NCBI GenBank assembly: GCA_027063545.1
Contig: JAMORN010000114.1
Span: forward strand, 1 to 5,254
Origin: JAMORN01 sp027063545 [NCBI: bacterium]
GTDB lineage: Bacteria; JAMORN01
Direction of reading: 5' to 3'
Length of the DNA stretch: 5,254 nt
Shown here piece after piece: positions 1,972-4,119 of this stretch (position 1 is the first letter of the stretch; every line of letters starts with the position of its first letter). Below the pieces are notes generated by a model. That model did not search any database. It was not told where the DNA came from and was given only the letters and a program-made list of their open reading frames with translations. Position numbers and translations under genes: made by a program.

Positions 1972-4119
1972 ATGGAAAACAAAAAGATTGAAAGCCCAAA
2001 GGATATAAAAAATTTTGAAGATTATAAACATTTAGTTGATCTTCTTAATTTTTACTCCTATAAATACTATGTTGAATCAGCTCCTGTTGTTTCTGATAGA
2101 GAATATGATAGGCTATTTGAAATTTTAAAAAAGGTAGAAGAGGAGCATCCTGATTGGATTTTAAAATATAGTCCAACACAAAAGGTTGGAAGTGATTTAA
2201 TTGATGAATTTAGAAAGGTTTCTCATAGTGTTCCAATGCTTAGTATGGATAATACCTATAATTTTAATGAGGTAATAGAGTTTGATAGAAGGATAAAAAG
2301 GCTTCTTTCAATAGAGGAAGATTTAGAATATACAGTAGAACCAAAGATTGATGGTGTTGCAATTAGTTTGATATATGAAGATTCTGTTTTTAAGAGAGCA
2401 ATAACAAGGGGAGATGGATTTGTAGGTGATGATGTTTCTGAGAATGTAAAAACAATAAAATCACTTCCTTTAAAACTTTTAAAGGAACTAAAGGGCAGGC
2501 TTGAGGTAAGAGGGGAGATTTTTTTTAAATATGATGATTTCTATAGATTAAATAAAGAGAGAGAAAAAAAAGGAGAAACTCTATTTGCTAATCCAAGAAA
2601 TGCTGCAAGTGGCACCTTAAAACTTTTAGATCCTAAAGAAGTTGCCAAAAGAAACCTTTCTCTTTTTGTTTATTATTTAATATCTGAAGAGGTTAATATT
2701 AATTCTCATTATGAGAGGCTTCAATTTTTAAAATCATTAGGTTTACCTGTTATAGAAGAAGTGAAAAAATTAAATAATATTAAGGAAGTTATTGAGTACT
2801 GTAAAATTTTAGAGCAAAAAAGAGAGAATCTATCTTATCCAATTGATGGAGCAGTTATAAAGGTTGATAGAGTTGATTATCAGGAAAAACTTGGATCAAC
2901 AGCCAAAGACTATAGATGGGTTGTTGCCTATAAATTTGAGGCTGAAAAAAAGCAAACAAAACTTATTGATGTAGAGTTTAGTTTAGGAAGATTAGGAACA
3001 ATTACTCCAATTGCTATTTTAGAACCTGTTCATTTAGCTGGCACAACTGTAACTAGGGCATCACTTCACAATTTTGACGAAATAGAAAGACTTGATGTTG
3101 CAATTGGTGATATTGTTTTGGTTCAAAAAAGTGGAGAGATAATACCTCAAATAGTTGGAGTTGTAGAAAGGCCTAAAGATAGAAAAAAAATTATTCCACC
3201 AGAGAAATGTCCTGTTTGTGGAGCAAAACTTGAAAAAGATGGGGATGTATATTTAAGGTGTCCTAATCCTAAATGTCCAGATAAGATTTATAAAGCAATT
3301 GTTCATTTTATATCCAAAGATGCAGTAAATATTGAATTTTTAGGCCCTCAGATAGTAAAAATGTTGATAGATTATGGAAAGATTTCTGATATTGTTGATC
3401 TTTATAAGTTAAAATTTGAAGATCTACTTTTTTTAGAGGGAATTAAAGAGAAAAGTATAAAGAATATTTTAAATTCTATAGAAAAATCAAAAAAAGTACC
3501 TGCTTATAAGATACTTTTTGGCCTAGGGATAAAAAATATTGGAGAAAAACTTTCAAAACAGATTTGTGGAGAGATTTCTTCGTTAAAAGAATTAGTTAAT
3601 ATAGATAAGGATCCGTTGCTTCAGGCAAAAATTTTAAATTTACCAGATGTGGGGGAAATAGTTCTTAATAGTTTAATAGAATACTTTAGAGATGAGGATA
3701 ATAAAAAGAGGATTTTAGAACTGGAAAAGTTAGGGGTTAATATAAGTTGTAAAGAACATGATAAAAAGGATATCTTTAAAGGTAAGAGATTTGTTTTTAC
3801 AGGAGAATTATCTTTTATTACAAGGGATAAAGCCAAAGAAATTGTTGAAGAGTTGGGAGGTGAGTTTTCAGAGAGCGTATCTTCAAAAACTACTTATTTA
3901 GTTGTTGGTTTATCTCCTGGGAAAACGAAACTTCAAGCAGCGGATAAGTATAAGGTTAAAAAAATAGATGAGAATGAGTTTTTAGATATGATAAAGGATT
4001 ATATTGATTTAGAGGCATTAAAAAAGGAGTATAACTCAAGGAAGATAACATCAAAAGTAAATAAGAAAAAACAGGAAACAAAAAACAATCAAAAAGGAGA
4101 ACAACTATCACTATTTTAA
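1972..4119 (+). CDS. ligA: NAD+-dependent DNA ligase LigA, with a C-terminal clamp-binding tail
   Basis: LigA seals nicks in replication (Okazaki fragments) and repair, using NAD+ to form an enzyme-AMP intermediate. Domains in order: Ia (about 15-75) with NAD+-binding residues Tyr32, Tyr33, Asp42, Tyr45 and Asp46 in [15 protein letters not shown]; adenylation domain with nucleophile Lys125 in KIDG (125-128), [13 protein letters not shown] (146-158), EVRGEIFF (178-185) and [11 protein letters not shown] (289-299); OB fold beginning near [10 protein letters not shown] (339-348) and GEIIPQI (388-394); Cys4 zinc finger at Cys413, Cys416, Cys430 and Cys435; helix-hairpin-helix region (about 445-590); BRCT domain (about 601-680). 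At 715 aa it exceeds the usual ~670 because of about 10 extra residues ahead of Lys125 and a Lys/Asn/Gln-rich tail (about 681-715) ending in QLSLF, a sliding-clamp-binding pentapeptide. A common DIEGLG motif reads NIEFLG (453-458). The ATG start is the only sensible one but lacks a Shine-Dalgarno. The stop overlaps the next gene's probable start. Confidence 0.98.
4095..4099 (+). promoter_or_regulatory. Shine-Dalgarno inside the ligA 3' end for the downstream membrane-protein gene
   Basis: AGGAG at 4095-4099 (AAAAAGGAGA in context) lies within the ligA codons for Lys-Gly-Glu just before QLSLF. It is 7 nt before an in-frame ATC (4107) and 13 nt before an in-frame ATT (4113) of the downstream frame. 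No ATG, GTG or TTG in any frame lies within a normal Shine-Dalgarno distance. The site therefore decides the start of the next gene in favour of a non-canonical initiation codon. It also suggests coupling to ligA termination at 4117-4119. Confidence 0.55.

Follow-up and report, generated by a model that had tools for sequence, protein, structure and literature searches.

A LigA protein with a C-terminal tail ending in a putative sliding-clamp motif, and comparable endings on LigA of other bacteria

The ligA locus and its C-terminal extension

The window, meaning the whole stretch of 5,254 nucleotides that was analysed, corresponds to contig C114 of a 1.57-Mb genome, which is assembled in 355 contigs and is 82.7% complete. 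Whole-genome searches listed no relatives of the same phylum, and kinship was seen only at the level of the same domain. Single-protein scans of genome contigs and viral contigs confirmed no close relatives of the window LigA, and the tailed LigA in this lineage is thus known from one genome. The features of the window are as follows.

123-710, minus strand: 5-formyltetrahydrofolate cyclo-ligase
742-1893: group-1 glycosyltransferase
1972-4119, plus strand: ligA, NAD-dependent DNA ligase of 715 aa (TIGR00575, E 3e-232; Pfam adenylation, OB, Zn-finger, HhH and BRCT domains)
3766-3993, plus strand: BRCT domain, residues 599-674 (PF00533)
3997-4101, plus strand: C-terminal linker, residues 676-710, rich in Lys, Asn and Gln, past the end of the family models
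4102-4116, plus strand: QLSLF, residues 711-715, followed by TAA at 4117-4119 (direct reading; clamp consensus as given in PMC11139829; comparative support)
Downstream of ligA: two frames with no Pfam matches

The identity of LigA is clear. It scores 772.6 bits against TIGR00575, over the equivalog cut-off of 444.45, and all of the adenylation, OB, Zn-finger, HhH and BRCT domains are present. The last position of the TIGR00575 model is reached at residue 670. The usual LigA ends with the BRCT domain, and this one continues beyond it. Such a tail does not exclude membership in LigA, because at least 10 extra residues are found in 29 of the 350 LigA proteins surveyed below. The initial annotation had placed an extension of about 35 residues here (682-715 plus the stop codon); the extension is real, but its length is 40 residues (676-715). 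Its account of the end and the composition agrees with the reading: the last five codons encode exactly QLSLF, and the tail contains 9 Lys, 4 Asn and 3 Gln, with sparse hydrophobic residues ahead of the motif. QLSLF fits the clamp-motif pentapeptide Q-phi-x-[L/M]-[F/L].

Two other readings of short motifs were set aside. A PIP-box requires Qxx-phi-xx followed by two aromatic residues, and PCNA as the partner; the window LigA instead ends in QLSLF, and the clamp encoded in its genome is a bacterial DnaN. NLSLF at residues 228-232 (2653-2667 of the window) lies in the adenylation domain, adjoins the invariant R227 and includes the invariant L229. The presence of NLSLF at such a conserved position means that a bare pentapeptide alone is not evidence.

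The tail was described in the initial annotation as disordered, which is only partly supported by prediction. The charge-hydropathy analysis places the linker on the unfolded side, but AlphaFold2 (44 rows; mean pLDDT 91.5 for the whole LigA) predicts a single helix for residues 680-714, with block pLDDT means dropping through 84, 76, 66 and 46. The motif is at the extreme C-terminus after the predicted helix, with pLDDT below 50 at 712-715. As modelled, a helix rich in Lys that loses confidence towards a loose end would be compatible with a tether.

The end of ligA overlaps a frame at 4065-4898 on the plus strand. This frame is open from 4065, and its start resembles a signal peptide by eye. 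It has no ATG, GTG or TTG before 4260, and its possible starts are ATC at 4107 or ATT at 4113. A Shine-Dalgarno-like AAAGGAGAA is seen at 4093-4101, inside the ligA tail. Either the frame begins with a rare codon or the assembly may be in error here.

Based on residue frequencies in the open reading frames of 21.8 kb of the genome, the probability that a given C-terminus is QL[SD]LF is 1.2e-6, and it is 1.15e-4 (about 1 in 8,700) for the looser Qxx[LM]F. When the tail of the window LigA was shuffled, Qxx[LM]F appeared at the end in 0.023% of the trials and QL[SD]LF in 0 of 400,000. A scan of the genome in six frames for Q[LF]x[LF]F followed by TRR found 18 places, against 8 in the reversed control. 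Seventeen of them have a true stop and one has TGG. Five of the 17 are QLxLF-stop, and among these only that of LigA ends an open reading frame of at least 100 aa. The one other place among the 17 that ends a frame of this length is in a UvrD-like helicase, KKKKDADQLKFF, off the consensus at position 4. Internally placed motifs are less informative. The looser pattern Q[LF][S/Y/D/E/A][LF]F occurs at 51 places against 39 in the reversed control, which is little excess, and among the 30 of the 51 places that were read, only that of LigA lies inside an open reading frame of at least 120 aa.

Two other proteins of the genome contain clamp-like strings. In the UvrD-like helicase (L042 1-1057, contig C164), position 4 of the motif is Phe and a Lys-rich stretch precedes it; the 5' part of the gene is beyond the contig end. 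DnaE (L131, contig C290) contains KEMGLVSLF in what we take to be the region where E. coli DnaE has its internal clamp motif, and its C-terminus is beyond the contig end.

Tails with similar ends recur in unrelated LigA lineages

LigA C-termini were compared in 350 distinct cellular sequences, which represent neither a random draw nor all genomes. They consist of a diverse set of 128 distinct ends (from lists of 367 and 55 LigA genomes, largely the same, and mostly those listed first), a named set (the best 80 of 589) and a "Bacteroidia" set of 142 distinct ends out of 196 genomes with LigA. The last class was chosen after the motif was seen in the Phocaeicola record L123, and membership was assigned by likeness of LigA to that of named Bacteroidales. 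Also among the 350 are the window LigA and three sequences, L453, L454 and L511, chosen on account of a relative with the motif. Two sequences at contig ends, L015 and L026, were dropped, as were duplicates with identical last 45 residues; G460 is represented by L492.

That LigA typically ends at the BRCT domain, as the initial annotation stated, holds as a rule: 321 of the 350 end fewer than 10 residues past the BRCT boundary. The 29 exceptions, with tails of at least 10 residues, are the informative ones. Qxx[LM]F lies within the last eight residues in 14 of these 29 and in 0 of the 321 (Fisher p 2e-17, a value that ignores relatedness and the way the sets were drawn). By set, motifs per tail are 4 of 16 in the diverse set including the window, 1 of 3 in the named set and 9 of 10 in the "Bacteroidia" set. 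With the window and the tailed L454 and L511, both taken for a relative's motif, excluded, 11 of 26 tails have the motif. Shuffling within tails gave a mean of 0.04 motif ends and a maximum of 2 in 5000 trials, against the 14 observed. The other stop-to-stop frames of at least 120 aa at the same loci end with Qxx[LM]F in 2 of 1361 cases. The motif is concentrated in longer tails: 11 of the 14 tails of at least 15 residues have it, and all but three of the 15 motif-less tails are shorter than 15 residues.

A check free of the full motif gave the same picture in a smaller set. Fifteen of 27 tails have [LM]F among their last five residues, vs 1 of 298 tail-less ends. In these 15 tails, Gln is three residues before the Leu in 12, and Ser, Glu or Asp is just before the Leu in 11. 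Many ends are looser than QLSLF of the window; position 2 is Gly or Thr in 7 of the 14 motifs, which is weaker than the consensus by the account in a review (PMC11139829).

Viral LigA was considered as a possible source. Among the best 80 of 578 viral matches, 68 distinct ends were readable, and the motif was found in 0 of 12 tails of at least 10 residues. Some other LigA tails end in clamp-like sequences that do not fit the motif. Those of L098, L021, L056 and L278 end in IQMGTLF (Paludibacter), QAPEALFA, KGLFDA and QQQRLL, possibly divergent motifs. A separate LigA match, G340:C1:199234-201162, contains four in-frame TGA codons in a 0.9-Mb genome, where TGA is possibly a sense codon.

Within groups of related LigA, the end persists over diverging linkers. 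In seven pairs from three groups, 40 to 67 of the last 70 BRCT residues are identical and the linkers share only 1 to 16 positions; for two more pairs, G429-G527 and G429-G497, the comparison covers linkers and motifs only. Linker length mostly changes in those groups while the end stays Qxx[LM]F. The initial annotation had predicted a variable linker with a conserved QL[SD]LF-like end. This pattern is observed in three tailed groups other than the window's own, with the qualification that many of the ends are of the looser kind.

The groups are described here in turn. Family f66 (G065, G600 and G601) and G594 of the same class have QGELF after linkers of 23, 23, 23 and 10 residues, and G600, G601 and G594 share 16, 7 and 3 linker positions with G065. 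In the same class, G310, G603, G595, G599 and G602 end at most 4 residues past the BRCT boundary, G593 has 9 extra residues and no motif, and G596 runs off its contig. In family f283, the ends in genus g350 are QMELF, QMDLFS, QMDLFS and QTDLFAQ (motifs QMELF, QMDLF, QMDLF and QTDLF, in G406, G481, G537 and G561, on divergent linkers), and the fifth genome, G510, gave no LigA; in genus g387, four species are tail-less and the fifth gave no match. Two genomes of one order, G303 and G185, have QLSLF and QFKLF, also on divergent linkers. Family f306 shows QTSLF, QGSLFE and QGSLF after linkers of 33, 17 and 22 residues, and its member G467 is tail-less. QGSLF and QGTLF are seen in genus g388, and QTTLF in G542. 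The Phocaeicola record L123 ends in QLELF, and its three relatives at 75-78% identity are tail-less.

In a FastTree phylogeny of 200 LigA proteins with tails removed, the 17 with the motif require 7 changes, and 300 label shuffles require at least 14. A smaller tree of 198 rows, 15 with the motif, requires 6 changes. The seven changes fall one per group: the window, f66 with G594, f168, Phocaeicola, f283, f306 and f316. The tree of 200 was built with FastTree only and counts changes, not their direction, and L495 from G542, a fragment, was left out of it. The changes are read as gains, because seven gains are simpler than an ancestral presence followed by losses everywhere else. It is probable that a clamp tether on bacterial LigA, consisting of a variable linker and a Qxx[LM]F cap, was gained many times independently, with perhaps an eighth gain in G542. 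This recurrence in unrelated lineages was not foreseen in the initial annotation. Most of the LigA proteins compared are without such a tail, and the tail is therefore dispensable in general.

The cognate clamp and known ligase-clamp systems

One DnaN was found in the genome. It has 375 aa, scores 220 bits against TIGR00663 and is encoded between frames read as DnaA and RecF. It is identical to E. coli DnaN at 85 of 366 positions overall. At the 21 positions that we take to line the peptide cleft of E. coli DnaN, 11 are identical (L155, T172, H175, L177, P242, V247, N320, Y323, M362, P363 and R365), six show conservative changes (R176K, F241Y, V344L, V360L, M364L and L366I) and four show non-conservative changes (R152G, G174S, S322N and S346P). 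The C-terminal MPMRL of E. coli DnaN corresponds to MPLRI. In this pairwise alignment of low identity, the cleft is better kept than the rest of the protein.

Lopez de Saro and O'Donnell, as cited in PMC2705854, PMC11139829 and PMC6010275, reportedly described in 2001 the interaction of E. coli LigA with beta and the promotion of ligation by the clamp. The ligases that PCNA recruits in eukaryotes and archaea are ATP-dependent. E. coli ligase binds the clamp, which promotes ligation (PMC6010275), and the affinity of this interaction is listed as not determined in a 2024 review (PMC11139829). The likeness to E. coli thus lies in the interaction of LigA with the clamp and its effect on ligation; unlike the window LigA, the enterobacterial LigA of Brenneria (L124) and Raoultella (L125) end at the BRCT domain without a terminal motif. 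In H. pylori, the LigA peptide QEFIRSLF (554-561) was co-crystallised with the clamp and has micromolar affinity, and according to its authors no site of this kind had been described before in a prokaryotic ligase (PMC4976356). That peptide also has Gln and Leu-Phe and docks in the clamp cleft, but it is internal, near the BRCT domain, whereas the motif of the window LigA is terminal, on an extra linker, and of the strict consensus. M. tuberculosis LigA, of the same enzyme family, differs in being reported not to bind the clamp directly, and the peptide site of its clamp is described as largely conserved (PMC3335792). On that report, recruitment therefore differs between bacteria.

Outside LigA, the C-terminal clamp tails of bacterial polymerases place the motif likewise, but on polymerases and not on a ligase. 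PCNA recruits eukaryotic DNA ligase I and a Sulfolobus ligase, so that the ligase is tethered to a ring for the sealing of Okazaki fragments (PMC2705854). The clamp and the motif are different there, and the relation is one of analogy, not homology.

No mention of a clamp motif at the C-terminus of LigA turned up in a search of open-licence literature, outside which most subscription journals lie; this is weak evidence of novelty, and the available parts of PMC13254535, PMC9690074 and PMC5872134 contain nothing on a terminal motif of LigA. Clamp motifs are known from DNA enzymes; the recurrent, convergent addition of one to the C-terminus of LigA appears to be new.

Proposed function and its alternatives

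It is very likely, judging from the sequence comparisons, that the tail of the window LigA serves as a sliding-clamp tether, and the interpretation of the initial annotation is supported to this extent. We infer binding, a geometry on DNA and a benefit as follows. The last five residues would dock in the hydrophobic peptide cleft of the cognate DnaN. The 35-residue linker would let the multi-domain ligase close round a nick while still attached to the ring, a clamp that would remain where an Okazaki fragment or a repair patch has been completed. Such a tether may raise the local concentration of ligase at nicks and may make LigA a competitor of Pol I and Pol III, which use the same cleft. The tail is proposed to work like the C-terminal clamp tails of bacterial polymerases and, by analogy, like the PIP-box recruitment of ligases to PCNA.

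The end of the tail could have come about by chance, if LigA lost its stop codon and was read on into AT-rich DNA, where the new end resembles a clamp motif by accident. The G+C content is 26% in the window and 25% in the tail, and A-rich DNA yields Lys, Asn and Gln by default; in addition, the genome searches found no same-phylum relatives in which conservation could be seen. This origin is nevertheless unlikely, given the probability per C-terminus (1.2e-6 for QL[SD]LF to 1.15e-4 for Qxx[LM]F) and the recurrence of like endings on LigA tails of unrelated lineages, where they persist over diverging linkers. A similarly small probability is assigned to the binding of another partner instead of DnaN, such as the clamp loader subunit tau or a protein with a similar groove. 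In E. coli Pol III alpha, both tau and the clamp are reported partners of the C-terminal motif (PMC11139829), but Gln followed by Leu/Met-Phe is the clamp consensus and the cleft of the cognate DnaN is kept in good part.

Two further explanations concern the position of the motif at the end of the gene, and both are very improbable. C-terminal hydrophobic residues can be degrons, and the end might be a degradation signal for a tail-reading protease. Against this, several other LigA proteins have one or two residues after the motif (QMDLFS, QGSLFE and QTDLFAQ), and the Gln is at a fixed position, which a terminal degron does not need. The tail might instead be shaped by the downstream gene, whose ribosome-binding site and start would overlap the end of ligA. 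The Shine-Dalgarno-like sequence and the late first ATG, GTG or TTG in the frame at 4065-4898 fit this scenario; the overlap would explain some of the end codons, but not the like peptides on LigA tails of other lineages.

Reports on how the main bacterial ligase reaches nicks differ between species. Structural proof of a clamp peptide site on a bacterial ligase amounts to one site in the literature surveyed. If the tether reading is true, the route from LigA to the clamp would be a lineage-variable, re-invented trait, which could reconcile the reports on E. coli, H. pylori and M. tuberculosis, and it would be a convergent counterpart of PIP-box recruitment. Tailed LigA proteins beside tail-less sister species offer a clean set for testing the effect of a tether on Okazaki fragment sealing. 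The recurrence suggests that simple C-terminal extension can repeatedly provide an essential enzyme with a clamp motif.
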